From positions 1-64,000 of the forward strand of contig JAUTCS010000074.1 of assembly GCA_030673825.1 (NCBI GenBank): a stretch of 64,000 bases of DNA. The letters are read 5' to 3'. Of the stretch, positions 7,445 through 31,341 are shown in pieces. The translations under genes and the position numbers were made by a program. Origin of the DNA: Verrucomicrobiota bacterium JB024. Its GTDB lineage: Bacteria; Verrucomicrobiota; Verrucomicrobiia; Opitutales; Cerasicoccaceae. The notes under the pieces are model-generated. The model had not been told where the DNA came from and did no database searches. It saw only the letters and a list, made by a program, of their open reading frames with translations. Each line of letters opens with the position of its first letter. Positions within the stretch are counted from its first letter, which is position 1.

Positions 7445-7451
7445 CTAAAAA

Positions 7452-8189: not shown

Positions 8190-8284
8190 ACAAGCCGTAT
8201 TATCAGAGCGACATGAGAATCATTGTCCAGATTCGCCATTGACTTTCCTTGATTCTGAAATTTTAAAATATAGCAATTATTAAG

Positions 8285-8300
8285 CAATAAACCTAACCCC
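8285..8300 (+). promoter_or_regulatory. Leader motif CAATAA(A)CCTAACCCC shared with another PEP-CTERM gene
   Basis: CAATAA-A-CCTAACCCC, ending 8 bases before the ATG of the PEP-CTERM gene at 8309. The same sequence without the extra A occurs at 19471-19485 before the PEP-CTERM gene at 19500. It may be an unusual translation or promoter element; the function is unknown. Confidence 0.35.
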
Positions 8301-8308
8301 CAATCCTT

Positions 8309-8974: not shown

Positions 8975-9019
8975 GCACGCAGCCGATCCCGGATTACCTA
9001 ACTACGAACAGGAGTCAAA

Positions 9020-10939: not shown

Positions 10940-10975
10940 CCGGACCCTTTTTGCTAATTTAAAGCAGGTTGATTG

Positions 10976-13468: not shown

Positions 13469-15526
13469 ATGCCTAACCAAGAGACCAAAACCTCCAGCTC
13501 AGCGACTGTTTCGCGGGCTTCGAATCGTCCCGTCCGGCTTGTCGTCCATCCGCTTTTTTCCGACCACGCCGTCCTCCTGAGAGCTGAAAGCGTTCCGATC
13601 TGGGGACATGCCATGCCCCATGAAACGGTCAAGGTGGAGATCGCCGGTGTCACCGGGCATGCCGTGGCTAACGACGCGGGAAACTGGAGAGTCACTCTTG
13701 ATTTATCCGGTGTGGATTCGCAGCCCCACGAGATGACGATTGTCGCCGGAGACGAGGTACGAGTCGTTTCCGATGTGCTGGTCGGGGAAGTGTGGATCGG
13801 TTCCGGACAGTCAAACATGGAGTGGCCGCTTGAGCTGACCACAGATGCCGAACAGGAACTTGCCCGCCCCGAAAACCCCTTGCTGCGCTTCTTCACGGTG
13901 GCAAAAGTCACTGCGCCCCAGCCGCTGGATTCCGTGGAAGGAAAGTGGGTTTTAGCATCTCCTGCTGCATTGGCGAACCTCAGCGCCACCGGCTACTACT
14001 TTTCCAGAAATATCCAGGTGGAGCTGGGGACGCCGGTCGGATTTATCAATGCAAGCTGGGGCGGCTCTCCGGTGGAGGCCTGGACGAGCATGGAAAGTCT
14101 GGTCAGGGATGAAGAGCTGGGACCACGCGCCGCATCGATAACGCAGTACCACGCCGACTTTCCTGCCCTGACCGCGGCCTTCAAGAAATCCTTCGGAGCG
14201 TGGTGCCAGCAGTTGTCCCGCCAGGACATTCCTCAAGGTCAACCCGAGGACTACAACCGGGTTCACGCGTTCAAAGGGCCATGGGAAAAGGTCAAACTGC
14301 CGGGGCTGCTGGCTGATTCCGGGGCGCCGGATGCGGGTGCTTTCTGGGTGAAGAAAACGATCCAGATCCCCTATGAGATGGACGGACTCCAGCAATCCGT
14401 CCACTTGGGCAGGATCAGCGGGTTCTGCCAGATCTACTGGAACGGAGAGCTGATTCGGGAGGTTTCATCCGAGACCGGCGCGCAGTCGGACATCATCATC
14501 TATACGGACCCGAGCATTATCCACGAAGGCGAGGCCACGCTCGCCATCCGCATCTTCAACCCCGGCTCGGGGACGGGAATTTTCTGCGACGATTTTTGCG
14601 TGGGTGGTTCCATTCCTCTGAGCGGGGACTGGGACCTGTTCGTCGAGAAGGAGCTGGCTCCGCTGACCGTCCCAGAGTTGGAGGCCATGCCTATGCTACC
14701 GTTGGCGCCCGTGGCGGACTACCACACGGCGACTTTCACCTATAACGGTATGATCGCCCCGGTCATCCCTTATGCGATCAGAGGCGTTATCTGGTTCCAG
14801 GGGGAGACAAATGTCACGCGTGCCTGGCAATATCGGCGGGCATTCCCGCTGCTGATCGAAGACTGGCGGGCGAAGTGGCAACAGGGGGATTTACCGTTCT
14901 TTTTTTGCCAGTTGGCGAATTTCGAGGGCAAGGTCTCGGACCCGAATTTCCCCGAGGCGCTGCCCGAGCTTCGCGAAGCCCAGTCCTTAGCCTTGACGCT
15001 GCCCGAAACCGGACAGGCGGTTCTGATCGATGTGGGAGAGGAGGGCGATATTCACTTTCGCAACAAAACCGAGGTCGGCTACCGCTTGGCGCAGATCGCG
15101 CTGGCCAGGGTTTACGGTCGCGACCGGGAGTACTCGGGACCGGTGTATGAATCCCATCGGCAGGAGGGGAAGGTGATCCGTCTGGCGTTTACCCATGCGG
15201 ACAGTGGCCTGGTTGCCAAGCCGCTCCCGAACGAGTACCTGTTGCGGACCACGGGAGCCACCGTCAGGCAACTCAAGCGCAACAGCCCCGGCAGTGAGCT
15301 GGAGGGCTTTGCGATTTGCGGAGCCGACCGCAAGTGGTATTGGGCAGATGCCAGGGTCGAAGGAAACTCTGTCGTTGTGTCCTCGCCTGATGTCCCGGTC
15401 CCGACGGCGGTTCGTTATGCATGGGCGTCGAACCCGACCTGCAATCTCTACAACCAGGCAGGGTTCCCGGCAGCCCCGTTCCGGACGGACGATTTCGAGC
15501 TCAGTACCGTGCAGGTGAGATACTAA
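13469..15526 (+). CDS. Sialate O-acetylesterase family (SASA, SGNH-type) protein
   Basis: A 685-residue carbohydrate esterase-like protein. An N-terminal Ig-like region (about 20-105) precedes the SGNH catalytic domain: nucleophile block GSGQSNMEWPL (about 110-120), a middle block GVIWFQGETNV, and the Asp-His block DIHFRNKTEVGYRLA. A jelly-roll insert (about 285-390, AFWVKKTIQIP to LAIRIFNPGSGTG) is inserted in the catalytic region, as in many SASA proteins. There is no signal peptide at either start candidate (13412 or 13469), so cytoplasmic action on imported oligosaccharides is likely. The family includes sialate 9-O-acetylesterases and acetylxylan esterases; next to a GH10 xylanase the latter is at least as likely. 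Confidence 0.85.
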   Translation: MPNQETKTSSSATVSRASNRPVRLVVHPLFSDHAVLLRAESVPIWGHAMPHETVKVEIAGVTGHAVANDAGNWRVTLDLSGVDSQPHEMTIVAGDEVRVVSDVLVGEVWIGSGQSNMEWPLELTTDAEQELARPENPLLRFFTVAKVTAPQPLDSVEGKWVLASPAALANLSATGYYFSRNIQVELGTPVGFINASWGGSPVEAWTSMESLVRDEELGPRAASITQYHADFPALTAAFKKSFGAWCQQLSRQDIPQGQPEDYNRVHAFKGPWEKVKLPGLLADSGAPDAGAFWVKKTIQIPYEMDGLQQSVHLGRISGFCQIYWNGELIREVSSETGAQSDIIIYTDPSIIHEGEATLAIRIFNPGSGTGIFCDDFCVGGSIPLSGDWDLFVEKELAPLTVPELEAMPMLPLAPVADYHTATFTYNGMIAPVIPYAIRGVIWFQGETNVTRAWQYRRAFPLLIEDWRAKWQQGDLPFFFCQLANFEGKVSDPNFPEALPELREAQSLALTLPETGQAVLIDVGEEGDIHFRNKTEVGYRLAQIALARVYGRDREYSGPVYESHRQEGKVIRLAFTHADSGLVAKPLPNEYLLRTTGATVRQLKRNSPGSELEGFAICGADRKWYWADARVEGNSVVVSSPDVPVPTAVRYAWASNPTCNLYNQAGFPAAPFRTDDFELSTVQVRY

Positions 15527-15565: not shown

Positions 15566-15667
15566 TGATCTGGCCCCTTGTGAAGATGGAACGAGCGGGT
15601 AAGCCTCTCATCATGCCGGTGGAATCCGCCGGGCATATGTTTGTCACCCCAAACCCCAGGATCTATC

Positions 15668-17764
15668 ATGCAAAGATTGGAGCTGAGCAGAGCCTCTGGC
15701 CTGCCTCTCAAGCTGTGCCTGACGGGCGCATTACCCCTGATTGTTGCCAGCCTTACCCATGCAGCCCCACCCATGCCCGAGGGCGAGCGTCTGCGAGTGC
15801 TGGCGGAGGCCTCTGACATCTGGATTGGCGCGGCTGTTGGAGACTATCAATTCTACCTGGTCGATTCCGACGACTTCCGTACCGTCGTCAGCCGCGAGTA
15901 TTCGTTCTTCACTTCGTTGAACGAGATGAAGATGGCCATCACGGAGCCTGTACAGGAGCAGTTCAGCTACAGCACGGGAGAGGACCTCGTTGACTTGGCC
16001 AGCACTGCCAGTGCGGATGTGCATGGGCATACGCTGGTCTGGTTCACCGGCGGCGGAATGCCTTCCTGGGTTTCCTCAGGCTCGTGGACCGCTACCACGT
16101 TGACGGATGTCATGTACAAGCACATCGACAATGTCGTCGGCCATTGGGCGGGTGATATTGCCGTATGGGATGTTGTCAACGAGGCGTTTGCCTATTCATC
16201 GCAGATGACCGAGGCCACCGATGGTGACGGGCAACCCTGGACCAACAGCCTGCGCGGGGCCAAGACGAGCGGAGTCGATATCTGGTACGATGTCATCGGC
16301 TCCTCCTATGTCGAAAAGGCCTTTATCCGTGCCGCCGCGGCTGATCCAAACGCCTTGCTGATCTACAATGACTATTCCACCGAGGAGGATAACTACAAGT
16401 CCCGCGCTGTGCGCAAAATGGTGGCGGACTTTCAGGCCAGGGGAATCCCCATCGACGGCGTGGGCACGCAGATGCACATGTCGGTCGGTCACAACCAGCC
16501 CGACTCTACGCTCCGGACCAACTTCGATGCGCTTTCGGCGCTGGGTGTCAACGTGTTCATCACGGAGTTCGACTGCCCCGCGACGGTTCTGGTATCCGAT
16601 GGATCGGGAGGCTATGCGGCCGTCGCCGATTCTGATCCCCCCACGCCGTTCGGGTTGGATCGCCAGGCCAGATCCTATTACAACACGCTGGACATGGCCT
16701 TGCGGTCGAGCGGCTTTGTCGGCTTTCAAACCTGGGGCGTGCAGAATCCGCCCACTGGTACCGCCACCATGCCGTTCAGCGCCACGGGATTCGTACCGGA
16801 GCCGGCGTATTATGCGATGCAGGACGCACTCGGCATGCAGGTGCGCGAGCAGTTAGCTTCAAACCCCGGCATGGAAGACGGAGCCATCTCTCCCTGGATA
16901 AATGTCGCTTCAACGCTGACCCTGTCGTCCATGAACCCTCATTCTGGCTCGTCATCTCTCGCGGTGACGCAGCGCAGCGTGAGCTATGCGGGGCCGCGGC
17001 AGAATGTGACCAGTGCCCTGAAGGCCGAGGGCGCCGGGCGCTACTTCATGCGGGGATGGATGCGCACCGCCTCGGGTTCAGCCACGGGAAAGGTAACGCT
17101 ATGCCTACAGGATGGAGCCGGTACGCACTACATCGGTATTTCCCAACCGATCTCGTCCACCTGGACCGAGGTTTCCGGCTGGATCAACGCCGTCTGGTTC
17201 AAGGAGCTGACCTCCGCGACGCTTTATGCGGAGACGCCGGGCTCGAGCGTCGATTTCTACCTCGATGATGTGAGCTTGAGCGACGGGAATCTCGCCAGGA
17301 ATGGCAACTTCAGTGACGGCCTCAATGCGTGGGCGGCCTATACCGGCGGCTCGATTTCGCCGGTGACTGACGACACCAATCTCAACCTCGTGTACAAGTA
17401 TGGCTCGGCAGGCTGTCTGGCCAGCGGACGGAGCGCTTCCTCCCAGGGGCCCGGCCAAAAAGTCAAAGACGCCTTGCTTGCCGCCGGTCCTGGTACCTAC
17501 CAGGTCCAGGCCTGGGTAAAGCTTCAAAAGCCCGACGCCGTCACGACCCTGGCCGGAACCGGGAAACTCACGATCCAATTAAAATACGGCGGTCAGGCTC
17601 ATTACATCGGTATTTCCAAAGCCATATCGTCGGACCAGTGGACACGCATCAGCGGCCCGTTGGACCTTGAGTGGGACGGTGAGCTGACATCCGCGCTGCT
17701 CTATGTCGAAACACCCGGGTCGACCGCACCGGTTTACATCGACGAAATCATGCTGCGCAAATAA
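15668..17764 (+). CDS. Exported GH10 endo-1,4-beta-xylanase with two C-terminal carbohydrate-binding modules
   Basis: A 698-residue secreted xylanase. The start at 15668 has an AGGA 7 bases upstream and gives a signal peptide (LPLKLCLTGALPLIVASLTHA). The GH10 barrel spans about 40-390, with HGHTLVW at 119-125, the acid/base WDVVNEAF (Glu172) and the nucleophile VFITEFDC (Glu300). Two similar CBM4/9-like sandwich domains follow (about 398-540 and 545-698), each with HYIGIS and an LYxETPGS...YxDDV/YIDEI pattern. The whole protein is intact. A rho-independent terminator follows. The 18-bp putative operator lies about 100 bp upstream. Confidence 0.95.
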   Translation: MQRLELSRASGLPLKLCLTGALPLIVASLTHAAPPMPEGERLRVLAEASDIWIGAAVGDYQFYLVDSDDFRTVVSREYSFFTSLNEMKMAITEPVQEQFSYSTGEDLVDLASTASADVHGHTLVWFTGGGMPSWVSSGSWTATTLTDVMYKHIDNVVGHWAGDIAVWDVVNEAFAYSSQMTEATDGDGQPWTNSLRGAKTSGVDIWYDVIGSSYVEKAFIRAAAADPNALLIYNDYSTEEDNYKSRAVRKMVADFQARGIPIDGVGTQMHMSVGHNQPDSTLRTNFDALSALGVNVFITEFDCPATVLVSDGSGGYAAVADSDPPTPFGLDRQARSYYNTLDMALRSSGFVGFQTWGVQNPPTGTATMPFSATGFVPEPAYYAMQDALGMQVREQLASNPGMEDGAISPWINVASTLTLSSMNPHSGSSSLAVTQRSVSYAGPRQNVTSALKAEGAGRYFMRGWMRTASGSATGKVTLCLQDGAGTHYIGISQPISSTWTEVSGWINAVWFKELTSATLYAETPGSSVDFYLDDVSLSDGNLARNGNFSDGLNAWAAYTGGSISPVTDDTNLNLVYKYGSAGCLASGRSASSQGPGQKVKDALLAAGPGTYQVQAWVKLQKPDAVTTLAGTGKLTIQLKYGGQAHYIGISKAISSDQWTRISGPLDLEWDGELTSALLYVETPGSTAPVYIDEIMLRK

Positions 17765-17858: not shown

Positions 17859-19205
17859 ATGAACATCGTTTACCTTCACGCCCACGACGCGGGTCGCATC
17901 ATCCAGCCGTACGGCTACCCGGTTGAAACGCCCCACCTGATGAACTTCGCGCGGGAGTCTGTGCTGTTCCGCAAGGCCTTCTGTGTCTCTCCGACCTGCG
18001 GTCCCTCCCGGGCGGCCCTCCTCACCGGTCAATATCCGCACCAGATCGGGATGTATGGTCTGCCTGGTTTCCAGGGATGGGCCCTCGATGATCCCGCCAA
18101 GCACTGGGCCCGGCAATTCCGTGCGTGGGGCTACGAAACCATCCTGGCGGGGGTGCAGCACGAGGCCGACCATCACGATTTTTCCTCCCTCGGCTACGAG
18201 TGTATGCTTGAGAATCAGGTTCCCGCCCGCTCGCAGGCAGGGGAGTTTTATCCCGAGACCATCACCAAGGTCGAAAGCCTTCTGGCCACCCGTCCCAAGG
18301 GCCCTGACGTTCGCCCGTTTTTCCTCTCCGTCGGCATCGATGAGCCCCACCGCGACAACATTGCCCGGCCCGAGATGAATCTCCATGGCGAGGGCGACCG
18401 CTTCAGCAAAACCCGTTACTACGATCCTGCCAAGCTCGACGCCCGCTACACCGCACCGCTGCCCTGGCTACCCGATCTCCCCGAGGTCCGGCAGGACATG
18501 GAAAGCTACCGTGTCGGCGTGAAAATCATGGATGAGTACATGGGCCGGGTTCTCGACGCGCTCCGCCACAACGGTTATGACGACAACACTCTCGTCATCG
18601 TGACGACGGATCACGGCATCGAATTTCCCGGTGGCAAAAAGACCCTCTCCGACCAGGGGACCGAGGTAATGCTCATGGTGCGCGGCCCCGAATCCCACCC
18701 GTTGGCCTCTGCGTTCAGGGGAGGGCGGGTGATCGAGCCGCTTGTCACCCACCTCGATCTCTATCCCACGCTTTGCGAGCTTCTCGGGCGCACGGTGGCC
18801 CATCCTCTCGAAGGCAAGAGCATGCTTCCGCTTGTGCGCGGAGAGGTCTCCTACCTGCATGAAGCCGTTTTCGCCGAGCAGACTTACCACGGTAAATTCG
18901 AACCCCTCCGAAGCATTCGCACCGAGCGTTACAAGTACATCCGCCGCCATTTCCCGAACGGCCCCATCATGACTCACGACGGTCCGGCTTCGCCGATTGT
19001 GCAAAAGTTCGGCTGGTATGACCGGCCCATCGGACATGAGGAGCTTTTCGACCTTTATCTCGATCCCATGGAGGCGTGCAACCGTATCGACGATCCATCC
19101 ATGGCTGAGGTCAGGGGAGACCTTGCCGCGTGTCTTGAGGAGCATTTGGTCGCCAGCGGCGATCCGTTTCTGTCCGGAGAGTTTCCCTCTCCTTGTGTCG
19201 GCTAA
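17859..19205 (+). CDS. S1-family sulfatase (sulfamidase/heparan N-sulfatase-like) without signal peptide
   Basis: A 448-residue sulfatase beginning MNIVYLHAHDAGR and lacking an export signal. The formylglycine motif is CGPSRAALLTG with Cys47. A second conserved block is VIVTTDHGIEFPGGKKTLSDQG, near residues 245-265. The HAHDAGR start and QPYGYPVETP segment are typical of the sulfamidase-like group of S1 enzymes. The C-terminus has the usual LFDLYLDPMEACN block. It follows the xylanase and the esterase on the same strand, after a terminator. As with the sulfatase at 5944, cytoplasmic location implies desulfation after import. The true substrate is not deducible. Confidence 0.9.
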   Translation: MNIVYLHAHDAGRIIQPYGYPVETPHLMNFARESVLFRKAFCVSPTCGPSRAALLTGQYPHQIGMYGLPGFQGWALDDPAKHWARQFRAWGYETILAGVQHEADHHDFSSLGYECMLENQVPARSQAGEFYPETITKVESLLATRPKGPDVRPFFLSVGIDEPHRDNIARPEMNLHGEGDRFSKTRYYDPAKLDARYTAPLPWLPDLPEVRQDMESYRVGVKIMDEYMGRVLDALRHNGYDDNTLVIVTTDHGIEFPGGKKTLSDQGTEVMLMVRGPESHPLASAFRGGRVIEPLVTHLDLYPTLCELLGRTVAHPLEGKSMLPLVRGEVSYLHEAVFAEQTYHGKFEPLRSIRTERYKYIRRHFPNGPIMTHDGPASPIVQKFGWYDRPIGHEELFDLYLDPMEACNRIDDPSMAEVRGDLAACLEEHLVASGDPFLSGEFPSPCVG

Positions 19206-19499: not shown

Positions 19500-20357
19500 A
19501 TGAAGATATTCACCTGTATGCTTGGATTGTCGTTCGCCGCACTGGCTTCGAGTCACGCGACGGTTCTTTTCTCCGAAAACTTCGATAGTTACACCTCAGG
19601 CGAGAGCATCGCCGTCGCAGGTCCTGCCAACTGGGCCCAGTCCAACAACCTGACGGGCATTTCCGCCGATATTGTGCAGACCGATACGAACGACTACTTC
19701 GGTGCCGGTACCGGAAACAAGATGGGCCAGATTTCCCAGCTCTCCCCGAACGGTAACCTCGCGATTCTCAACAGCACGACCGCGACCTCGTTTGGGCTCA
19801 CCGGCCAGGTGTCATTCGACTACGTGGTGCCGCCCTACGATACCGTTTCGCCCACCTCCCAGCCTTACGTCACGGATTCATCTTCTCAGGATGGTATTGT
19901 CTTCCGCATCGGCAGCGCCGCTGGCAATAGCAACTCGGCGTTTGGTTTGCTCTTCAAGGACAGTAGCCTCTACGCCGTCAGCGGCAGCAGCCTCGGCGCT
20001 CCTGTCCTGCTCGCTTCAGCGGCGGCGTCCACCATGCACAGCCTGTCCATCGTCTATAACAACCAGTCCACCTCCTTCAACTACGATGGCGGCAGCCTGG
20101 CAGCACAATCGATGGACGTCTATCTGGACGGTGTGCTCGTTGGTGATGACCTCGCCCATGGCGCCCTCGCCGCCGATACCGCCATCGCCAGTCTGGGCTT
20201 TATCACCAAGACGGCCAATAGCACGGTCCTCACGATGTACACAGACAACTTCGTCGTCTCCGACACGGTTGTGATTCCCGAGCCCAGTACGCTGTCTCTC
20301 GCTGGTCTGGGTGCGCTGTTGGCCGTTGTTATGCTCCGTCGGCGCAAGCGCGACTGA
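19500..20357 (+). CDS. PEP-CTERM protein with LamG/concanavalin-like sandwich domain
   Basis: A 285-residue exported protein with signal peptide (TCMLGLSFAALASSHA). The body begins VLFSENFDSYTSGE, the usual opening of sandwich domains in PEP-CTERM proteins, and is rich in Ser/Thr. The tail is IPEPSTLSLAGLG, a transmembrane helix and RRRKRD, a textbook exosortase signal. It lies under a candidate operator shared with the xylanase, so it may be part of the xylan response. The function is probably surface or matrix attachment or glycan binding; no catalytic motif is visible. Confidence 0.85.
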   Translation: MKIFTCMLGLSFAALASSHATVLFSENFDSYTSGESIAVAGPANWAQSNNLTGISADIVQTDTNDYFGAGTGNKMGQISQLSPNGNLAILNSTTATSFGLTGQVSFDYVVPPYDTVSPTSQPYVTDSSSQDGIVFRIGSAAGNSNSAFGLLFKDSSLYAVSGSSLGAPVLLASAAASTMHSLSIVYNNQSTSFNYDGGSLAAQSMDVYLDGVLVGDDLAHGALAADTAIASLGFITKTANSTVLTMYTDNFVVSDTVVIPEPSTLSLAGLGALLAVVMLRRRKRD

Positions 20358-20479: not shown

Positions 20480-23400
20480 ATGTATCGAGCCAAAAACCAT
20501 CGCGGCTTTGCTCTGATCATCACGCTTACGCTGCTTGCGTTTGTCGTGTTGCTGATGGTTTCCTTTGCCTCGCTTACCCGGGTGGAAATGCAGGCGGCCA
20601 CCTATTCGCAGCACCATGCTCAGGCCCGCCAGAACGCGATCATGGCGCTCTCGATCGCGATCGGGCAAGTGCAGAAACTCACCGGTCCCGATCAGCGGGC
20701 GACCGCCACCGCTGATCTCAACGGGAGCGGACAGGATGGTACGCATACCTGGACGGGCGTGTGGGGTAATACCAGTGCCTCCGATGACTATGTCAGTTCG
20801 CCTCAGTTGCTGGGCTGGCTGGTGAGTGGTAACGAGGGCGGGGATGTTGAGGTGGATTTCTCCGCGGCTTCCTTCGGGACGATTCAGGCCGCTCCGGCCC
20901 CGGCCTACTCGCCGTCCGATGCGGTGGCTCTCGGTAGCGCGGCTGCCCAGGGTGCGCTGGCCACCGATATTCAGCTGCGAAACCAGCCTGCGCAGCTCCT
21001 GGTCGGGCCGGGAAGTGTGGTCGACGAGCAGGACTATGTCGTAGCTCCGTTGGTTGAGGTTGAAGCTTCCGAAAACGGAACGACCTCGGTGCTTGGCCGT
21101 TACGCCTGGTGGGTGGGTGACGAGGGGGTGAAGGCCCGGTTCAACCTTACCGATCCATGGGCATCCACTGCTGAAGACCGGCAGGAGCGTTTCAACCGTC
21201 TTCTGCTGTCGCAGCGTTCCGGCATTGAGCTGATGACCCGTGACGGCAGCACGGTTTTCGGCTCCTCGCTCTACGACGCCGATGGGAACGACTCCGCCAG
21301 CCGCCAATTCTGCGATGCCTTGAGCCAAACCCATTCCTATTCGCAGGTGCCCCTGCTTGCCGGCTTCAGCTCCGACGACATCCGCACCGCCTTGCGGCGG
21401 CGCTATCACGACATCACGATGAGCTCACGTGGGGTGTTGGCTGATCAACTGCGCGGTGGCTTGCGCAGGGATCTCACCGTTTTGTTTGACCAGGACCCCT
21501 CGTCGTGGACCGGGTCGCTCAAGACAAGTCTGGACAATGTGAGCTACTCCTATGCGGGCGCCAGGCGTATCGCCGACTTCCAAAATCCGCGCCTGTACGG
21601 GGCGAGCTACTCCATGGACCCGAGCCGAAGCCCGGATTCCCGCTCTCCCGCCGCGGCAACCTGGGAGCAGGTGCGCAGTTTTTACGACTACGCTACGACC
21701 AACAGCACGGGGATCGTCAATGTGACACCGCAGACTGACACGCAGATGGGGGTCTTTCCTCTTGTGCTGCGCTGGGGCGTGTCGTTCGATGTGAGCGCCT
21801 CGTCCGGCGGTACGGGGGAACTCCATATTTTTCCCCATGTGGTTCTGTGGAACCCCTACAATGTCACTCTGCGCGGCAGCTACCGCATGAGAATAGAGTT
21901 TGCCAACACGGATGACTCGACGGCCAAGTATCTCTACCTCGTCACCCCCCGTCTTGAGGCCGATGGGGTGACTCCCATCTATGCTGCGCCTTACAACGTT
22001 TACCATCAGGAGATTTTCGCTCCGGAGACCCCTGGCACGGGGAAGTACAGCCAGCGCACGATGGAGTTTCTCATCGAGGCTGTGGATATCCCGCCGGGCG
22101 AGGCTTACGTTTTTACGCCGCCATCGACTCAGGCCTATAATACCTCCGGGGATAACATCCTCGCTAACACCTATAACACCACGGCCTCCTTTACCCGTAC
22201 GATCGCCCACGCCTTCACCCCCGAGGAAGCCGCGGCCTCCGCGCTGGTGCTGGCCAATGTTTCGGGGGGTAAGGGCGGTACGATGTCCTTTCATCTTCTC
22301 GATGCTGCCGGAAACCAACTCCAGTTGATCGATGCCGTGGGACTGGCGAACACGGTGACCGTGAACAATAACCAAGGCAGCGCAACACAGGTTACGGCTG
22401 CGACCCCGAACGGTGCGTTTGGCCTATTCCGGGATATTTCAGTGGGGCCGGTATCTTCGCGAAACGAGGTGGGTTTTTCTTTCCTGAATGCGCTTCAACG
22501 CATCGATGCCCGCTACAATTGGCTGGCGAACTACAACCAGCGGGCTCCCTCCATCGGACGCGCCTGGTTTGAGTGGAGCAGTGGATTTATCTCGACGGCC
22601 AACTGGTCAACCTGCCCGGGCCGTGCGGATCCAAGCGTATCGGAGTGGAACATCGATCTGTTTTCCAGCGATCCGGCCCGGGCCTATACCGGACCGAGCA
22701 TGCTCGCCGAGCATGGTGTTCTGCAGGCGATCCTGTTTAATCTGCCCACGACCAACACGCCGGTGCTGTCCCTCGGGCAGCTCCAGCATGCCGCGCTCAC
22801 TTTCAGCACCTCAGGACATGAGCCGACGTATCCGTTTGGCAATGCCTATGCCGCGCCGGAAATCCGTCAGAATCGCCTGCTTAACCCCAATGGCTACGGC
22901 TCCAGCTCTTTTCCTGGCTCCGAGCCTCACCTGACCGATGTTTCGTATCTGCTGAACCGCTCGCTCTGGGACCGTTTCTTTTTCTCGGGCACTCCCAATG
23001 TCTCTGACGCTGAGTTACAGGCCAGGATCGATGCCGAGGAACCGCTTCCAGACGGACGCCTGCATTATACTGAGGGGGCCACCGCTGCCGACGTGCGAAG
23101 TTTCGACGGCGCGGCTGCTCACCTGATGGTGGATGGAGCTTTCAACGTCAATTCTACATCGGTCGAGGCGTGGACCGCGCTTTTTGCCAGTCTTCGCGGT
23201 GTGGATGTTTCGCCTGCCAACGGATCGATATCCACGGCGGTAAACGACACTCCCTACGTGCGGACTCCCTTTGTGCCGGGCGGAGATAACACCAATTCCC
23301 AGGCTGATCAATGGTCCGGCTATCGGAGCCTGACCGACGCGCAGGTACGCTCGCTTGCTGAGTCCATGGTTGAAGAGGTGAAGACCCGTGGGCCGTTCCT

Positions 23401-23986
23401 CTCGATGGCGGACTTTGTCAACCGCCGGCTGGTTGCCTATCCTGACGAAACCGGGCTCAATGGAACTTTGCAAGCGGCGATGGACCGGGTAAACAACCTG
23501 AACTCCCGGGTTTTGGAAATGGACCGCCCTGATATTGGCGACGGAGTTCAGGTGCCTGACCTCTCCACCGAGATCTGGAGTGTGAACGGTGCCGATTACT
23601 ACTTGCAGAATATCAAGGCTCCGCGAAAGAACTTTGCCTATACCGGACGGAGTAAGGGAGCTCTCGCCCCGGGGTTCATCAGCCAGGCGGACCTGCTTCA
23701 AGCCCTCGGACCGGCTCTCATGGCCCGTTCCGATACGTTTGTGATCCGGGCTTACGGGGAATCGGTCAACCCCATGCTTTCGAGTGACGATGCCGGTTAT
23801 ATCACAGGACGCGCATGGTGCGAGGCTGTGGTGCAGCGGCTGCCCGACTATGTGGATACGAGTGGCAATGCCGCTGAGGATGCTCCGGTGTTGGATGGAG
23901 CCGTCAATCTCACCGCCGTCAATCAGCGTTTAGGACGACGCTACCAGGTGGTGTCCTTCCGTTGGCTTACACCTGAGGAACTATGA
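20480..23986 (+). CDS. Giant pseudopilin-like protein of the Verru_Chthon cassette A type
   Basis: A 1168-residue protein with a prepilin-like N-terminus, HRGFALIITLTLLAFVVLLM: cleavable before Phe, but without the Glu at +5 typical of pilins. After the helix comes RQNAIMALSIAIGQVQKLTGPDQR. This block, and the C-terminal FVIRAYGESVNPM ... ITGRAWCEAVVQRLPDYVD, recall the Verru_Chthon cassette protein A family. Comparison is from memory and by eye. Related minor pseudopilins (GspK-like) also contain large extracellular domains. The remaining members of a four-gene cassette are not adjacent. Its stop overlaps the next ATG by 4 bp, so the 262-residue protein downstream is translationally coupled and a likely partner. 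Confidence 0.72.
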   Translation: MYRAKNHRGFALIITLTLLAFVVLLMVSFASLTRVEMQAATYSQHHAQARQNAIMALSIAIGQVQKLTGPDQRATATADLNGSGQDGTHTWTGVWGNTSASDDYVSSPQLLGWLVSGNEGGDVEVDFSAASFGTIQAAPAPAYSPSDAVALGSAAAQGALATDIQLRNQPAQLLVGPGSVVDEQDYVVAPLVEVEASENGTTSVLGRYAWWVGDEGVKARFNLTDPWASTAEDRQERFNRLLLSQRSGIELMTRDGSTVFGSSLYDADGNDSASRQFCDALSQTHSYSQVPLLAGFSSDDIRTALRRRYHDITMSSRGVLADQLRGGLRRDLTVLFDQDPSSWTGSLKTSLDNVSYSYAGARRIADFQNPRLYGASYSMDPSRSPDSRSPAAATWEQVRSFYDYATTNSTGIVNVTPQTDTQMGVFPLVLRWGVSFDVSASSGGTGELHIFPHVVLWNPYNVTLRGSYRMRIEFANTDDSTAKYLYLVTPRLEADGVTPIYAAPYNVYHQEIFAPETPGTGKYSQRTMEFLIEAVDIPPGEAYVFTPPSTQAYNTSGDNILANTYNTTASFTRTIAHAFTPEEAAASALVLANVSGGKGGTMSFHLLDAAGNQLQLIDAVGLANTVTVNNNQGSATQVTAATPNGAFGLFRDISVGPVSSRNEVGFSFLNALQRIDARYNWLANYNQRAPSIGRAWFEWSSGFISTANWSTCPGRADPSVSEWNIDLFSSDPARAYTGPSMLAEHGVLQAILFNLPTTNTPVLSLGQLQHAALTFSTSGHEPTYPFGNAYAAPEIRQNRLLNPNGYGSSSFPGSEPHLTDVSYLLNRSLWDRFFFSGTPNVSDAELQARIDAEEPLPDGRLHYTEGATAADVRSFDGAAAHLMVDGAFNVNSTSVEAWTALFASLRGVDVSPANGSISTAVNDTPYVRTPFVPGGDNTNSQADQWSGYRSLTDAQVRSLAESMVEEVKTRGPFLSMADFVNRRLVAYPDETGLNGTLQAAMDRVNNLNSRVLEMDRPDIGDGVQVPDLSTEIWSVNGADYYLQNIKAPRKNFAYTGRSKGALAPGFISQADLLQALGPALMARSDTFVIRAYGESVNPMLSSDDAGYITGRAWCEAVVQRLPDYVDTSGNAAEDAPVLDGAVNLTAVNQRLGRRYQVVSFRWLTPEEL

Positions 23987-24771
23987 TGATACGTAATCTT
24001 CCCTTGTTTTTTGTGTGCGTGGCCGGTTGCTTTTTCCAGCCAAACCTACACGCCCAGTCGTATGAACCTTCGCGAAAGATATCTCTGCGCGTGCTCGCCT
24101 TCGAGGGCTACCTGACCGATCTCGCCGTTCGCTCACCGGAGGGGCGCACCCGCGTGGTGGCCCGATCCAGCGCTTTCAGCCCGGAAATTATAGCCCAGTC
24201 AACAGGAGGTGAGGTCGATTTCTTCCGTTATTCTCCTTCTTCGGAGAGAATCGCGCCGTCCGCGGCCGGTGAAACCGCTGCCTCTCCGGTCGCCCGTATC
24301 GCCGTGCAACCTGATGTAAACCGCTACTTGGTGATTTTGGACGGACGTGGGGAGGCTGACGAGCGTGTTTACAGTGCCTATGCCATCCCTGATGCCGCTG
24401 GCTCATTGCCCGTGGGTTCGGCCCGCGTGATTAACTTTACCAACGCTCCGCTGGCTGTGCAGCTGGGGGAGAGCTCGGCCATTGTTCTCCCTGCTGAGTC
24501 CTCCGTGTTGGCATGCCCACCCGAAGGCGACGGGCATGTTAACCTCCAGTTGGCCTGTCCCGGCGATGAGCAAAAATGGAAGCTGGTTAACCGGACTCGT
24601 GTCGCCATGCCGAAAGACCGGCGGCTGTTGTTACTGGTAACTCCTTCTCACCGCCAGTCTTCACCCGACGGAGGCGTGGTCATGGCCGAAGCAGGCTCAC
24701 TCAACCTCAATATACTCTACGACGCCGCGCTGTCTCCGTCGGCTTCTCTTAGCGCTTTAACTTCTCGTTAA
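23983..24771 (+). CDS. Secreted protein of unknown function, translationally coupled to the giant pseudopilin
   Basis: A 262-residue protein that I do not recognise. It has a signal peptide (NLPLFFVCVAGCFFQPNLHAQ) and then two apparent halves. Residues about 30-130 contain ISLRVLAFEGYLTDLAVRSPEG and a Ser/Ala-rich part. Residues about 140-250 resemble a small beta domain (RVINFTNAPLAVQLGESSAIVLPAESS, then KWKLVNRTRVAMPKDRRLLLLVTP). The ATGA overlap with the preceding stop and a GAGGA ribosome-binding site show coupling to the cassette-A-like protein, which suggests that the two act together at the cell surface. No catalytic motif is seen. Confidence 0.7.
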   Translation: MMIRNLPLFFVCVAGCFFQPNLHAQSYEPSRKISLRVLAFEGYLTDLAVRSPEGRTRVVARSSAFSPEIIAQSTGGEVDFFRYSPSSERIAPSAAGETAASPVARIAVQPDVNRYLVILDGRGEADERVYSAYAIPDAAGSLPVGSARVINFTNAPLAVQLGESSAIVLPAESSVLACPPEGDGHVNLQLACPGDEQKWKLVNRTRVAMPKDRRLLLLVTPSHRQSSPDGGVVMAEAGSLNLNILYDAALSPSASLSALTSR

Positions 24772-24776: not shown

Positions 24777-25472
24777 ATGAACAACCATCATTGCTCCCTC
24801 TTTGCCTGCATCGGACTCGTTTTGGGTCTGGCGGGAACCGTATCAGCCTCGCCGGTTACTTCACCTGAGGTGAACGCGCTTCAACTGCGACCCAACGGGA
24901 CGTTTACCTTCGACGAGGTTGATGTTTTCGCGGGTCATTTCTCCCCACATTTTTCACTGCGCCTGGACCAGGAGTCTCAGCAAGTGACCTCCGGCTATCC
25001 GAAGCTGGACGGTTCGTCTTGGCAGACCTGTCTCGATTTCTACCTGCCGGATGTTCCCGAGCCCATCACCCTGACCGAAAGTGTGGATAAGGCGGGTGCC
25101 GACTCCTTCAGCGTCACCTACGACGCGAGCCATCCGACGGGTGTCCCTTCCCAGGAGATGTTCGTGCAGATGGAGATCCCCATCTCGGTTGCTTCAGGGA
25201 AGTCCATCCTCCTCGATGGTAAGCCCATCGAACTTCCCGTCGATCAGGCCTCCGGTCAATTGTTTATGGACTATGACTTGAGTCCCCACGTGTTGGTGCT
25301 CCCATCGGCATCGGGGACCGTGACCGTGAAGGGCACGTTCCGGGTGATTGTGCAGGACCAGCGTCAATGGGGTAGCGATGTTTACTCCGTCCGTCTGCCC
25401 TTCGAACCAATGGGGAAAGTGCTCACTCACGAGGAAATACAGGTGACCCTGAGCCATACCCCGAAGAGCTAA
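24777..25472 (+). CDS. Secreted single-domain protein homologous to the N-terminus of the next gene
   Basis: A 231-residue protein with signal peptide (LFACIGLVLGLAGTVSA). Its whole mature part matches the first 220 or so residues of the hydrolase at 25586. Shared landmarks are FDEVDVFAGHF against FDQISVFAGHF, SQEMFVQMEIPISVASGKSI against TQEMFLQLELPLSVAAGKSI, PHVLVLPSASGTVTVKG against PHTLVLPGATGTVTVEG, and QDQRQW against QDQRKW. It is likely a beta-sandwich binding module produced alone. Six bp separate it from the preceding stop codon, so it belongs to the same transcript. The function is unknown; glycan binding or enzyme docking is inference. Confidence 0.75.
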   Translation: MNNHHCSLFACIGLVLGLAGTVSASPVTSPEVNALQLRPNGTFTFDEVDVFAGHFSPHFSLRLDQESQQVTSGYPKLDGSSWQTCLDFYLPDVPEPITLTESVDKAGADSFSVTYDASHPTGVPSQEMFVQMEIPISVASGKSILLDGKPIELPVDQASGQLFMDYDLSPHVLVLPSASGTVTVKGTFRVIVQDQRQWGSDVYSVRLPFEPMGKVLTHEEIQVTLSHTPKS

Positions 25473-25585: not shown

Positions 25586-28500
25586 ATGAATACCGTATCG
25601 CGTCTTTTGCTGCCTTCATTATTCGCCGTCGGCCTGTCTGTTCTCGCGCAGGCGGCCCCGGTGTCTCCTCCTGAGATCACTACCCTGAGAGTGCAGCCGA
25701 GCGGAGAATTCAACTTCGATCAGATTTCGGTGTTCGCCGGACATTTTGCTCCGGGCTGGAGCCGTACGGATCAAGGTTCGTCAGCGCCGGAGGCCGGTTA
25801 TCCGAAGTGGGTGGATTCGCTCTGGGAGACGCGGGTGGCCCTGCTGCCGAAGGGAACCACTGAGCCCATCCTTTTGAGCGAAGAGCTGGAGCGCCTGGAC
25901 AGTACCTCGTTTTTAGTGGACTACGAGGCGACTCATCCCAGTGGCGTAGAGACACAGGAGATGTTCCTTCAGTTGGAGTTGCCGCTCTCGGTCGCTGCGG
26001 GGAAGTCAATCACCCTGGACGGCGTCTCATACGATTTGCCGGTTGAGTTCGGTGAGACCGTGCTGTTTTCAGCCTACGAGGCGGGTCCTCACACGCTGGT
26101 TCTGCCGGGGGCGACCGGCACGGTGACTGTCGAAGGTGAGTTCAGCGTACTCGCCCAGGACCAGCGGAAGTGGAAGATCGACTCGTATGGGGTTCGCCTG
26201 CGCTTCTCGCCCGCGAGCAAGCGGCTCATTCGTCAGTCGTTGCAGGCCGAGTTCAGGTACGAGCCCTACGCGAGTACTCCGATCTCCATCCGTTCCGCTG
26301 CCAATTTCGGGTTTTCCGATGACGCTCCCAAAGACGGCCAGGGAGGCTGGACCGATCAAGGCCCCGAGAACGACATGCGCTCGCTGCCTTCCGGGCCGCT
26401 TCTGGCCGCGGGCGTTACGTTCGAGATCATCGATGAGGCATCCAACAACGGGAACGGGGCTATCGTCCTGGGAAAGTCGGATCAGGATTTCCTGCCCAAG
26501 GCGGTCACGGTTCAGATTCCCGAGGATGCATCGGTGGAGGATTGGAACAATCTATACCTGCTGCACGCCTCTGGCTGGACGCCCCCGTCGGGCGAAGTCG
26601 TTGGGTACGTCGTTCTGTGTCACGCCGACGGTTCGGAAACGAAACGTGAAATCGTGAGCGGGCGCGACGTCGGTAACTGGTGGGCGCCGGTCCGGTTGGA
26701 CAATGCAGCTATCGGGTGGGAGGGCGAAAACCCGAGCAGCAGTATCGGCCTGTATGTCTCGAAGGTTCCGCTCGGCGACGAGCCCGTGACGGCCATCCGG
26801 CTGGAATCTGCCGGACCCGCCATGTGGTTCGTGGTCGGCCTTTCCGCTTCGGCTGACGACATCGTGCCCTTCGCACCCAGCGTGCCGTGGACCTCGGCGG
26901 CCAATCACGAATGGGTGCCTTACAAGCACGAATTGGCAATCGAGTCGGGCAGTGTCTTCGATTTTTCACGCATGATCGACGCCCCCGCCGGGAAATACGG
27001 TGAGCTTATCGTCGGTCCTGACGGACATTTCGAGTTTGCCGGTCGTCCCGGTGAGCGTGCCCGCTTCTGGGGAGTGAACCTGTGCTTCGGCGCTAATTAT
27101 CTGAGCAAGGAAGTGGCAGACGATCTGGCCGAGCGCTTTGTGCGCTCCGGCTACAACACGGTCCGCTTGCATCACTACGACCGTGAGCTCCAGCTCAAGG
27201 GCGGCGCCTCATGGGAACTCGACCCCGAGCAGCTCGATCGTCTCGACTACCTCTTTGCCGCGATGAAAAAGCGCGGCATCTACATCAACATCGACCTCTA
27301 CACCATTCGCGACTTTTCCCAAGAGGAGCTGGACGCCATCGGGTTGGGCGACGCCGTCGGAGCGAAGGCCCATGGCATGCATTGGCGGTTCAAGGCGCTC
27401 ATGCCGGTGTCGGAGAAAGTCTTCGATCTGTGGGCGAAGTTTGCGGAAAACCTGCTGAGGCACCGCAACCCCTACACGGGCATGACCTGGGGAGAAGATC
27501 CGGCCCTTATCGGGATCTGCCCGGTCAACGAGGACCCGCCCAGCGACCTGATTAACAGTGACCCGGTCGTCAAGCGTCTGTACGAGGAGGCTTTCGAAAG
27601 CTGGTGGGCACAGCCCGCGAACCACGCGTTGGCCGGTGATGACCGGACACACGCTTTCAACCGCTTCGTTTACGAAATGCAGATTAAGCAGGAGAACCGT
27701 TTGCGCGACTTTATCCGGGGGCTTGGCGTGAAGACTCTGCTCACCGGGACCAACTGCCACAACGACCAGGACCTCTCGTATGTGCGCGCCACCTTCGACT
27801 ATGTTGATAACCACTGCTACTGGGACCATCCGTCCTTCCCGCAGGTAGCGTTCAAGTTCCCGTTCCAGTACCGCCAGACAAGCGCGGTGTCCTCCTTTGC
27901 CCAGACGCCGAGAGGTGTGATGCCGACCCGTATCTTCGGCAAGCCTTTCGCGGTGACGGAATTCAACTTCGTCTTCCCCAACCGCTACCGCTCTGAGGGC
28001 TCGGTCATCATGCCAGCCTACGCCGGACTTCAGGACTGGGACGCGCTCTATAACTTCGACTACTCCAGTAATGCGAACGGTGTGGCCTGGCCCAGCGCGG
28101 GGGGGAGCACATTTTCGATCAGCAGCGACCCGATCGGGCTGATCGGTGATCGCCTCGCTGCGATGGTTTTCCTGCGCGGCGATGTGGCTCCGGCGAAGAG
28201 CCGGATCGGTTTCGCGGTACAGGCGGACACGGCATTCGCCAGCTTGCAAACACCGTTCCCGTCGACGTTTTCCAAGTTAGGGCTCGTTACTGGGATCGGC
28301 TCGGCTCCCGCGCTTCCGGAAACCTTGCTCGAAGAGCAGTCCCTGGCTGCTGTTGTGGTGGCATCAGCCGATGATCATGGCGAAGCAGGAATGCCGGTTT
28401 ACTCTGCAAATGATGAACTCGGTGCGAATCTGATGAGCGATGGCATTCTCCCCGCCGGTTCGATTTCTCCGGATGGCGCAGGCTTCGTGAGCGACACCGG

Positions 28501-28972
28501 ACAGACGGAGCTCCGCACGGATGAGGGCACCCTCAAGGTCGTGACTCCTCGCAGCGAGCTTTTTGTACTGCCCGCTCAGACCCGATTGAACGGTGACTTT
28601 GCGTCCGTGCGCAACGGCGATACGTTCTGCTCCGTCGCCGTTGTGGCCGTGGATGAACAGCCACTGGTGGAGAGCTCCCGTTTGCTGATCGCGCATCTGA
28701 CCGATGTGCTGCCAACTGGCGTTCTTTTTGATAGCTCTGATCGAAAGATACAGGAGTCTGTCGGTCGTCTTCCGCTTTTGGTGAGGCGTGGCTCGTGCGA
28801 GCTGACCTTGAAACTGGCACCTGATGGCGACTACCGGGCGTGGGCGGTTTCCTCGACTGGGGCGCGCTTGCGTGAAGTTTTGCTCTCCCGGACGGATGAG
28901 GGCTGGGTCTTGCAGGCCAGTACAGTCACCCCCGAGGGAACCCAGCTCGCCTACGAAATCCAACGCAACTGA
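25586..28972 (+). CDS. Exported multidomain clan GH-A (GH5-like) glycoside hydrolase
   Basis: A 1128-residue secreted enzyme. Order: signal peptide (LLLPSLFAVGLSVLAQA), a sandwich domain (about 25-220) also encoded alone by the preceding gene, a second jelly-roll-like domain (about 230-430), then a TIM barrel beginning near RFWGVNLCFGANYL (about 490) and a C-terminal beta-rich region (about 900-1125). Barrel residues fit clan GH-A: acid/base in GICPVNEDPP (Glu649) and nucleophile in FAVTEFNF (Glu792), with YNTVRLHHYD on an early strand as in GH5-type enzymes. The precise GH family and substrate are not certain. It precedes a GPH symporter, as if the product were imported directly. Confidence 0.82.
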   Translation: MNTVSRLLLPSLFAVGLSVLAQAAPVSPPEITTLRVQPSGEFNFDQISVFAGHFAPGWSRTDQGSSAPEAGYPKWVDSLWETRVALLPKGTTEPILLSEELERLDSTSFLVDYEATHPSGVETQEMFLQLELPLSVAAGKSITLDGVSYDLPVEFGETVLFSAYEAGPHTLVLPGATGTVTVEGEFSVLAQDQRKWKIDSYGVRLRFSPASKRLIRQSLQAEFRYEPYASTPISIRSAANFGFSDDAPKDGQGGWTDQGPENDMRSLPSGPLLAAGVTFEIIDEASNNGNGAIVLGKSDQDFLPKAVTVQIPEDASVEDWNNLYLLHASGWTPPSGEVVGYVVLCHADGSETKREIVSGRDVGNWWAPVRLDNAAIGWEGENPSSSIGLYVSKVPLGDEPVTAIRLESAGPAMWFVVGLSASADDIVPFAPSVPWTSAANHEWVPYKHELAIESGSVFDFSRMIDAPAGKYGELIVGPDGHFEFAGRPGERARFWGVNLCFGANYLSKEVADDLAERFVRSGYNTVRLHHYDRELQLKGGASWELDPEQLDRLDYLFAAMKKRGIYINIDLYTIRDFSQEELDAIGLGDAVGAKAHGMHWRFKALMPVSEKVFDLWAKFAENLLRHRNPYTGMTWGEDPALIGICPVNEDPPSDLINSDPVVKRLYEEAFESWWAQPANHALAGDDRTHAFNRFVYEMQIKQENRLRDFIRGLGVKTLLTGTNCHNDQDLSYVRATFDYVDNHCYWDHPSFPQVAFKFPFQYRQTSAVSSFAQTPRGVMPTRIFGKPFAVTEFNFVFPNRYRSEGSVIMPAYAGLQDWDALYNFDYSSNANGVAWPSAGGSTFSISSDPIGLIGDRLAAMVFLRGDVAPAKSRIGFAVQADTAFASLQTPFPSTFSKLGLVTGIGSAPALPETLLEEQSLAAVVVASADDHGEAGMPVYSANDELGANLMSDGILPAGSISPDGAGFVSDTGQTELRTDEGTLKVVTPRSELFVLPAQTRLNGDFASVRNGDTFCSVAVVAVDEQPLVESSRLLIAHLTDVLPTGVLFDSSDRKIQESVGRLPLLVRRGSCELTLKLAPDGDYRAWAVSSTGARLREVLLSRTDEGWVLQASTVTPEGTQLAYEIQRN

Positions 28973-29076: not shown

Positions 29077-30591
29077 ATGTCCCATTCCCATCCCATCGCC
29101 GCGTCCGATCGCATCCCTTTGCTGCAAAAAATCAGCTTCGCCGCTGGCGTGAACATGGACTATGCGGCGACCGGGCTGATGTACATGCTGTGGATGCCGG
29201 TCTTCAATATCGGATTTGGCATCAGCCCGGTGGTGCTGGGAGGCATCCTCATGATCTTTCGGGGGTGGGATGCCCTGACCGACCCCGTCATGGGGACGAT
29301 CTCTGACAACACCCACACGCGGTGGGGGCGCCGTCGGCCCTTTATGTTTGCCGGGGCGATCCTGACGGCATCGATCTATCCTTTTTTCTGGTTCATGCCG
29401 ATGGAGTGGGGCGAACACGCCAAGCAGATTTACCTGACCTGTGTGGGGCTTGTCTTCTTCACCATGTTCACGACTTGGTCGATGCCCTACTACGGCATGC
29501 AGATGGAGCTGACGCCGAATTATGACGAGCGCTCTCGCCTCACCGTCTGGATGGCCTTCTTTGGAAAGCTGTTCTTCCTAGGAATAAGTTGGTTCATGCC
29601 TTTCGTCTTGGTGGTGGGGGCGCTGGCACTCGGAGACTCGGAATCGATTACCGACGAAGGGGCTTTTCTGGCCAAGATGCTTGCGCCGCTTCAATCGTGG
29701 CTGTCCACGCTTCCCGGTGTGAACGCCGGTGAAAAGCCCATCGTGGTGGGTATGCGGATCGCCTGCTGGCTGGTGGTCATTTCGATTCTTGTCTTTGGCT
29801 TGCTGCCCGCGCTGCTGGTCAAGGAACGCTATTACAAGAAAGCTACCGCCAAACAGCCGAAGGAACGGTTCTGGAAGAGCATCGGGGAGTCACTGCGCTG
29901 TAAGCCGCTCTGGGTGCTCATCGGTGTTTCCTTCTTCCTTTCTCTGGGCACGCATGCGGTGAAAAGCCTCGGCCTCTACGTGAATATTTATTACGTCAAT
30001 TACGGCGACCTGACCAAAGCCACGGTCATTAATGGATGGCGTGAGACGGTCAGCATTTTTGTTGGCCTTGCGACTCTCCCGATCCTCATCAAAACGGCTG
30101 AGATTTTTGACAAGCGCCTGCTTACGCTGACGGTGCTGGGGATTGCCACCGCCGGGCATATGCTCAACTATGTTTGTATGACGCCGGATCATCCGTATCT
30201 GGTGATTTTGCCCGGAGTCTTCGAGTCCTGCGCGTTGAGTGCGTTCTGGATGTTTCTCCCGTCGATGAAAGCCGATGTGGCCGACTACGATGAGCTCTAT
30301 ACCGAGCGTCGCCGCGAAGGCTCGATCAACGCGTTTTACTCCTGGTTCGTGAAGGTCGCCGGTACGCTTGCGCTCGGTTTGGGCGGACTGGTACTCCAGC
30401 TCAGCGGTTTCGACATCGAGGTGGGGCCGCACCAACCCGACGTGGTTCTGAACAGGATGTTCCTCATCTATCTGTTGATTCCCCTGTTTACCTGGGGTGT
30501 GGCTATCGCCCTGCTTTGGCACTATCCGCTTGGCCGGGCGCGTGCGGAGGAAATCCGAGCCACCCTGGAAGCCCGGCGTGGCAAGCTCTGA
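29077..30591 (+). CDS. GPH-family (MFS) glycoside/sugar:cation symporter
   Basis: A 504-residue inner-membrane transporter with about 12 membrane helices. The signature of the glycoside-pentoside-hexuronide symporters is clear: GWDALTDPVMGTISDNTHTRWGRRRPFM (about 65-95), including the conserved DxxxDPxxGxxSDxTxxRWGRRRP pattern and its cation-site acidic residues. A central cytoplasmic loop (KERYYKKATAKQPKERFWK) separates the two halves. It lies between the multidomain hydrolase and a pseudopilin gene. It probably imports di- or oligosaccharides released by the adjacent hydrolase. The protein is intact. Confidence 0.92.
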   Translation: MSHSHPIAASDRIPLLQKISFAAGVNMDYAATGLMYMLWMPVFNIGFGISPVVLGGILMIFRGWDALTDPVMGTISDNTHTRWGRRRPFMFAGAILTASIYPFFWFMPMEWGEHAKQIYLTCVGLVFFTMFTTWSMPYYGMQMELTPNYDERSRLTVWMAFFGKLFFLGISWFMPFVLVVGALALGDSESITDEGAFLAKMLAPLQSWLSTLPGVNAGEKPIVVGMRIACWLVVISILVFGLLPALLVKERYYKKATAKQPKERFWKSIGESLRCKPLWVLIGVSFFLSLGTHAVKSLGLYVNIYYVNYGDLTKATVINGWRETVSIFVGLATLPILIKTAEIFDKRLLTLTVLGIATAGHMLNYVCMTPDHPYLVILPGVFESCALSAFWMFLPSMKADVADYDELYTERRREGSINAFYSWFVKVAGTLALGLGGLVLQLSGFDIEVGPHQPDVVLNRMFLIYLLIPLFTWGVAIALLWHYPLGRARAEEIRATLEARRGKL

Positions 30592-30609: not shown

Positions 30610-31341
30610 ATGAAACCGACCCACTTCACACGAGGTAAAGCCGCCTTCACGCTGATCGAGCTTCTGACGGTGATTGCCATCATCGGTGTCCTTGCGGGGA
30701 TCATCGTCGCCATCACGGGAAGGGCCAGTACCTCAGCTCAGGATGTGGCCTGTACCAGTAACCTGCGGCAGATCGGACTGGCCGTTCAGCTCTATGGGGG
30801 CGAACACAAGATATATCCGCCAGCGTTGGGCGGTGGCACTTACGAGCCCAGTGGCTATCTGTGGTACCGCACGCTCCGGCCCTACATGGAGGGGCAAAAG
30901 CCCGAGGAAGAGAGCAAGGTCTACAACAGCCCGGTGATCGTTTGTCCGGGCCGTACGATCACATCGGTACCATCGGACGGGACTTTGTCCTCTTATGCCG
31001 CCCATCCCTTGTTGTTTTTTGACGAAACGAATCCCAACCGTGTCCCGAGACGCATGGGCTCGCTGGAGAGGCCGGCCGAGATTATCATGATGGCCGATGC
31101 GACACAGCGGGCATCCGGTGAAGCCTACGGTAACTTTTTCAGCGTTAGTGAATGCTATGCTCCCACGACCAACCCTGCCTACGGCCATATGCCGGTTGGT
31201 GTTGGGCCGGACAAGGATGGAGACTATTCCTGGTTCCGCTACCGCCACAATGGCCACATGAATGTGGCGTTTGCTGACGGCCATGTGGGCTTCTTCCAGA
31301 AGGGCGAGGTGCTGAGGCGCAACGTGCAGGTGAATTATTGA
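30610..31341 (+). CDS. Type II secretion/type IV pilin-like pseudopilin
   Basis: A 243-residue pseudopilin. The prepilin signal is KAAFTLIELLTVIAIIGVLA, cleaved before Phe with Glu at +5. DVACTSNLRQIGLAVQLYGGEHK follows the helix, and the C-terminal block RYRHNGHMNVAFADGHVGFF is the H-X9-DG motif typical of Verrucomicrobiota/Planctomycetota pseudopilins. It follows the GPH symporter by 18 bp and converges on the LacI gene. No dedicated secretion apparatus is near. Confidence 0.9.
   Translation: MKPTHFTRGKAAFTLIELLTVIAIIGVLAGIIVAITGRASTSAQDVACTSNLRQIGLAVQLYGGEHKIYPPALGGGTYEPSGYLWYRTLRPYMEGQKPEEESKVYNSPVIVCPGRTITSVPSDGTLSSYAAHPLLFFDETNPNRVPRRMGSLERPAEIIMMADATQRASGEAYGNFFSVSECYAPTTNPAYGHMPVGVGPDKDGDYSWFRYRHNGHMNVAFADGHVGFFQKGEVLRRNVQVNY

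Follow-up and report, generated by a model that had tools for sequence, protein, structure and literature searches.

The stretch of DNA analysed here (the window) comprises 64,000 nucleotides of Verrucomicrobiota bacterium JB024 (contig JAUTCS010000074.1, positions 1 to 64,000), and it raises the question of what a giant pilin-like protein, encoded together with an exported partner, might do among genes for carbohydrate use. We refer to the two proteins as A and B. Their open reading frames, of 1168 and 262 residues, lie where the original prediction had placed them and overlap by 4 bp (Table 1). Carbohydrate genes flank the pair over about 5.9-34.7 kb, in agreement with the proposed placement in a glycan locus. 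In promoter and terminator scans there were five promoter-like sites, where shuffled sequence gave 2.3 (sd 1.5), and six terminator-like sites, where it gave 6.0.

Table 1. Features of the A-B locus, in window positions.
Feature	Position	Strand	Basis
Sulfatase	5944..7335	-	
GntR/sugar-binding regulator, GH42-like hydrolase and SASA-type acetylesterase (three genes)	9647..15526	+	
GH10 protein with two CBM4_9 stretches	15641..17764	+	Pfam
Sulfatase	17859..19205	+	Pfam
PEP-CTERM protein directly 5' of A	19500..20357	+	
A, putative giant GspK-like pseudopilin, 1168 aa	20480..23986	+	Open reading frame; predicted fold; 22 further copies in genome
A, leader (residues 1-9) and long N-terminal helix (10-68)	20480..20683	+	Sequence; DSSP on model
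A, variable beta-rich inserted region (residues about 421-660)	21740..22459	+	Model strands; borders approximate
B, exported partner, 262 aa, predicted beta-sandwich	23983..24771	+	Open reading frame; model; profile behind A in other genomes
231-aa protein behind B, without Pfam match	24777..25472	+	
1128-aa protein, weak GH5 match (E 0.0075, below cut-off)	25586..28972	+	Pfam
MFS_2 sugar transporter	29077..30591	+	
DUF1559-type pilin, outside the A-B pair	30610..31341	+	
LacI-type regulator	31400..32515	-	
Melibiase-like hydrolase	32875..34719	+	

A begins like a prepilin (NHRG|FALIITLTLL) and has Ile in position +5, so that the absence of Glu+5 originally pointed out is real. None of the 83 readable A-family rows carries this Glu (93 rows were considered, ten of which do not fit the motif pattern), and neither does any of the 26 readable GspK rows of the order. 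The prepilin site of GspK usually lacks Glu+5. Since the GspK-type pseudopilins of the order also lack it, its absence from A is not the oddity that it was taken to be.

Structure prediction had been suggested for the two proteins, including as a complex; modelled singly, A is predicted to be GspK-like and B to be a beta-sandwich. The AlphaFold2 model of A, based on 93 alignment rows, has a mean pLDDT of 81.6 and a pTM of 0.87. A Foldseek search with the whole model gave 151 matches, none of them below E 0.001, with glycosidase chains on top. VIA-align 2 was used to re-score 995 of 1000 Foldseek chains, a comparison that is therefore confined to Foldseek's list, and it placed three GspK-type chains ahead of all others: 5vtm_X of the Pseudomonas XcpVWX complex (Z 11.2; 226 of 259 residues at 3.0 Å), 9a1f_T of the Xcp pseudopilus filament model, taken here as its GspK subunit (Z 11.1; 268 of 295 residues at 3.4 Å), and 3ci0_K, the GspK of E. 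coli (Z 10.2; 246 of 280 residues at 3.4 Å). The next row scored Z 4.4, and the three alignments jointly cover residues 9-1168 of A.

Sequence profiles reach less far into the protein. Against the GspK model NF037980 of NCBIfam, A scores 23.2 bits, in the first helix only and below the cut-off of 130, a value which the GspK of the organism's own type II operon also does not attain (104.6 bits). Local profile-profile comparison with GspK (hhalign) supports the first helix (E 2e-4); beyond it, the second-best piece, at an FNVNST motif, is unsupported (E 0.2), and E 0.033 was attained with a reversed control. Searched as a profile against PDB sequences, A had no match up to E 10. Our preferred reading of A is that of a GspK-type tip protein which combines a GspK-like core with large insertions. 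One account has GspK capping the I-J-K complex, with its insertion thought to hold it at the tip (PMC7248040), and the tip complex is described in another as critical for cargo recognition (PMC6211770).

The alignment of A comprises 93 rows (22 own frames, two contig-end halves being excluded, and 71 of 86 frames from elsewhere, without partial or broken ones). Conservation is high in the helix and at residues 761-800, 881-920, 961-1000 and 1081-1120, and low at 481-520 and 601-720; the core residues of A are conserved. The beta-rich inserted region shows low conservation at 481-720, is absent from the compact relatives described below, and gave weak Ig-like matches over residues 421-692, with Z at most 4.4 in VIA-align.

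The resemblance to Verru_Chthon cassette A (TIGR02600) that had been proposed holds as a distant kinship and fails as a membership. A scores 37.9 bits over residues 9-71 (model positions 1-63 of 1296) where the cut-off is 332.3, a threshold that every own copy found also misses, and the helix is the sole portion of A that matches TIGR02600 and NF037980. A profile of seven TIGR02600 members recovers this helix at E 4e-10 and one later motif at E 0.0017. The two proteins are thus alike in giant size, first helix and one later motif; they differ in that the locus of a true member, one of the TIGR02600 proteins over the cut-off (present in 2 of 145 genomes), carries cassettes B and C over their cut-offs (L210), whereas A stands beside a B-type partner. 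In line with the original prediction, no cassette B, C or D member over its NCBIfam cut-off was found adjacent to A among eight window proteins, since the only other pilin scanned is the DUF1559-type one (19.7 bits with TIGR02596, cut-off 70; 11.7 bits with TIGR02599, cut-off 256.5). The term 'Verru_Chthon' led to no paper among open-licence PubMed Central articles.

B, described as an unrecognised secreted protein at the outset, has a signal peptide, as judged by eye from the sequence, and matches no Pfam or NCBIfam family. When 88 B rows were compared with Pfam, six families were hit by a single member each, the best being DUF4397 (E 5.8e-5); a profile search against PDB sequences gave six matches at E 0.39-1.5, which we took as chance. 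The model is strand-rich (mean pLDDT 87.7) and aligns with PepT ectodomains at Z 12.7, while residues 144-248 align with both AlgF domains at Z about 9, a score that other Ig-like domains equal. From these structural matches, B is read as two putative sandwich domains. The matches to PepT ectodomains, AlgF and cholesterol-dependent cytolysins are taken to reflect a widespread Ig-like sandwich and not to indicate a function.

The pair had been called an orphan; it is in fact one of 22 in the genome, many of which lie in carbohydrate loci. A search of the 4.60 Mb assembly (163 contigs) with A gave 65 matches in 24 frames, of which the two at contig ends, on C121 and C87, are identical where they overlap and were counted as one gene, for a total of 23 copies: 22 whole frames of 1008-1255 aa and one split by contig ends. 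All except one are followed by an open reading frame of 218-275 aa that starts -58 to +48 bp from the A stop (distances use first possible starts), and the 22 B proteins so defined form one divergent family. Conversely, each of the 16 matches of a B sequence search of the genome adjoins an A. The B-less copy, on contig C119 (L077, 8473-11499), is 1008 aa long and sits on a long branch near the B-less copies found beside a type II operon.

This pairing extends to named public genomes, where a B profile built from the own copies was found behind 72 of the 80 A frames that leave 700 bp or more downstream. The remaining eight comprise three first halves of broken frames with B after the second half (L095, L138 and L139), one partial frame (L152), and four that truly lack B (L154, L079, L093 and L134). 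Across 145 genomes of the phylum, searched at E 1e-10 for A and E 1e-5 for B, A was detected in 39 and B in 22, all within those 39 (22/39 against 0/106 A-negative genomes; Fisher p 9e-16, a value that ignores kinship); the best five A and 19 B candidates were scored per genome, so that copy numbers are lower bounds. B was not found at this threshold in 17 of the 39 A-positive genomes, ten of which belong to genus g20 and four of which have a compact A. A contig scan yielded 133 relatives, and the best 80 of the 133 are all, by title, from Verrucomicrobiota or Kiritimatiellota. Among 21 of the genome's own pairs, divergence in A and divergence in B are correlated (r 0.59, p 2e-4). The pair is a real, conserved, two-gene unit. 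The original prediction had staked its case on a match to the cassette A model and on conserved pairing of the two genes, of which the former falls short of the cut-off and the latter, with a coupled exported partner, is strongly borne out.

Are these units tied to carbohydrate loci in general? Among 85 proteins encoded within two genes on each side of the own A copies, the window included, Pfam identifies 11 sulfatases. A control of 96 proteins from 11 regions of the same contigs holds at most one, a bound that follows from the absence of sulfatase among families with two or more members (Fisher p 0.0016 when one is taken). The same 85 neighbours include four GH42-like, three LacI, three AraC-type and three beta-helix proteins and a few sugar transporters. 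When the window neighbours themselves were used as queries, sulfatases appeared in 10 of the 23 own A regions and MFS_2 matches in several, the GH10 and 1128-aa proteins gave single weak matches, and no relative of the PEP-CTERM or 231-aa protein was matched beside another A copy. In other genomes, GH5 and GDSL esterases (five each), GH16 and LacI (four each), and GH1, sulfatase and CBM9 (three each) are among the commonest neighbours, in a size-limited set of 105 proteins from 66 loci that has no control of its own. Many A neighbours have nothing to do with glycans.

From genome to genome, lineages of A retain related neighbours. When A copies were compared between genomes (92 loci from 38 genomes), a shared neighbour at 300 bits or more was seen in 12 of 16 pairs with at least 60% identity, 45 of 165 at 40-60%, 9 of 203 at 35-40% and 17 of 3492 below 35%. 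Both this pattern and the co-divergence of A and B are also expected if the genes merely travel together.

Four compact family members of 432-446 aa (L218-L221) are missing the greater part of the extra region. Their matches to the A profile lie at about 8-301 (to 236 in L221), at about 804-863 in a short piece, and at about 974-1069 (979-1031 in L221). In L221, the compact A follows pilins like GspH/cassette D, cassette B and cassette C, and the one in L218 comes after G-, I- and C-like pilins, all of these matches being below curated cut-offs, as is that of the L218 protein itself to GspK (33.8 bits). In both cases the gene takes the GspK position, behind three pilins that resemble G/H, I and J or cassettes D, B and C. 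The adjoining B-, C- and D-like pilins also suggest that the Verru_Chthon cassettes are probably GspH/I/J/K-like tip sets. One relative, of 817 aa and six profile pieces (L222, 6148-8601), is intermediate in length between compact and giant forms.

B-less A copies stand upstream of type II operons in two cases. In L093, A ends about 200 bp before a GspG that passes its cut-off. Behind this GspG come more pilins, a match to GspK (60.9 bits) and genes resembling those that occupy the L and M places in the operon of the genome studied here. In L154, A lies upstream of a type II operon GspG with one called reading frame between. The own genome has a type II operon on contig C117 with a normal GspK, where only GspG passes its NCBIfam cut-off, the other genes are best full-length matches below theirs, and L and M are assigned by position. 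Since this GspK is present, A is additional to it and not a replacement. A GspK match was obtained in 45 of 52 Opitutales genomes searched, mostly one per genome. Because six secretin and ten assembly-ATPase matches occur on several contigs, the candidate machines for A are also several. A resembles GspK/XcpX, the minor pseudopilin that caps the pseudopilus of type II secretion, in predicted fold over 226-268 aligned residues, in a start without Glu+5 and in the gene position of its compact relatives; it differs in being three times longer, with large insertions, in its many copies per genome, in scoring below the NF037980 cut-off, in its pairing with B, and, for the window copy, in lying apart from the type II operon.

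We propose, with a probability of roughly 60%, that A and B form locus-specific, exchangeable pseudopilus tips. A would be cut by prepilin peptidase and would wait in the inner membrane until built into the tip of a filament, while B, exported alongside, would most likely bind it. Each locus, when induced, would supply its own pair, which would be fitted to a common machine of the type IV filament kind (type II secretion being the most likely) and handle the cargo of its locus, either by exporting its enzymes or by touching and pulling in its polysaccharide. The proposal is supported by the pairing (22/23 own, 72/80 elsewhere) and the confinement of B to A-positive genomes; by the GspK-like predicted fold, the compact A behind pilins and the B-less A near GspG; and by the sulfatase excess, the tracking of neighbours with A identity and the A-B distance correlation. 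Against it stand the restriction of GspK profile support to the first helix and the lack of a Foldseek match below E 0.001; the normal GspK of the genome, its other secretins and ATPases, and the 17 of 39 A-positive genomes in which B was not found; and the many non-glycan neighbours, together with the fact that genes travelling together would also show co-divergence and shared neighbours.

The presence of several machines in the genome would also suit a surface adhesin, in which A and B tip a type IV pilus that holds the cell on particles or polysaccharide and has no export role. A type IV-like pilus locus of Akkermansiaceae has been linked to glycan attachment (PMC13174399), and tip pilins such as ComZ are described as binding ligand through their inserted domains (PMC7248040). 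We consider this reading unlikely, given that the fold match of A is to GspK, that the linked machine genes, where seen, are GspG and GspK of a type II operon, and that PilX of P. aeruginosa, the type IV pilus counterpart, is reported to be without the GspK insertion (PMC7248040).

The pair might also never enter a filament: A, anchored by its helix, and B would then hold polysaccharide or enzymes in the periplasm. The great size of A would fit such a scaffold, its assembly into a filament is something that we infer, and neither a GspI- nor a GspJ-like partner, nor an H-type pseudopilin, stands beside the window copy (eight window proteins scanned with NCBIfam). The conserved prepilin site and helix, and the place of the compact relatives within a pseudopilin cluster, make it more improbable still than an adhesin. 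Least credible of all is that the copies simply spread with carbohydrate loci and have no function tied to them. In a quick tree the own A copies are indeed dispersed among those of other genera, L063 pairing with the Coraliomargarita copy L120; yet 22 of them are intact frames (1008-1255 aa), core residues are conserved, and the pairing is nearly strict.

The proposed exchangeable tips invite comparison with SusC/SusD of Bacteroidota, a tandem pair repeated in polysaccharide loci. The A-B unit may be analogous in this arrangement; it differs in that no relation of sequence or fold was found and that A and B are not an outer-membrane channel. The pair is also not SusC/SusD itself, an outer-membrane TonB channel with a SusD-type lipoprotein, as A and B have no Pfam match and A is pilin-like. 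More tentatively, and on balance doubtfully, the giant tips of Verrucomicrobiota and Kiritimatiellota could be the counterpart of SusC/SusD, one per polysaccharide locus on one shared filament machine, drawing polysaccharide to or through the secretin. If so, the A-B pair would mark polysaccharide loci in both phyla.

Glycan use in the phylum has been linked to pilins before. The Akkermansiaceae locus mentioned above, MUL2, ties a pilin-type protein to glycan use, although MUL2A is described as small, archaeal-type-IV-pilin-like and partnered by PilM (PMC13174399). Mucin use by Akkermansia has been the subject of separate reports (PMC11790493, PMC12418764). In Verruconatronum, also of the Opitutales, 67 PulG-like pseudopilin copies are reported, one of them in an alginate cluster, and another pseudopilin and two hypothetical proteins were raised on alginate; these share with A the order and a possible polysaccharide link, and are labelled PulG-like (PMC13274419).

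GspK-type tip proteins are already known, and the giant A with its partner B is a variant whose role is proposed here. How Verrucomicrobiota attack or take up large polysaccharides is little understood, and the A-B unit offers a testable candidate and a possible marker of carbohydrate loci. Should a single machine accept different tips in turn, the type II pseudopilus would have a modularity that is undescribed among the open-licence PubMed Central papers found.

Several minor observations were made. Type IV filament-type machines are encoded on contigs C117, C20, C88, C105 and C145 (L158, L214-L217), and a weak match (18.3 bits) to a later part of the GspK model lies in an 867-aa non-A frame at C20:8732-8914 (L170). 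A Kiritimatiellota chromosome (L133) carries two A-B pairs near each other, at 5279-9438 and 11289-15478, and the B-less A of L134 (279-4859) has an upstream pilin weakly like cassette C (24.2 bits). In the window, the DUF1559-type pilin shares its locus with the LacI-type regulator and the MFS_2 transporter, and, by eye, the 231-aa protein behind B resembles the N-terminal portion of the 1128-aa GH5-like protein encoded next.
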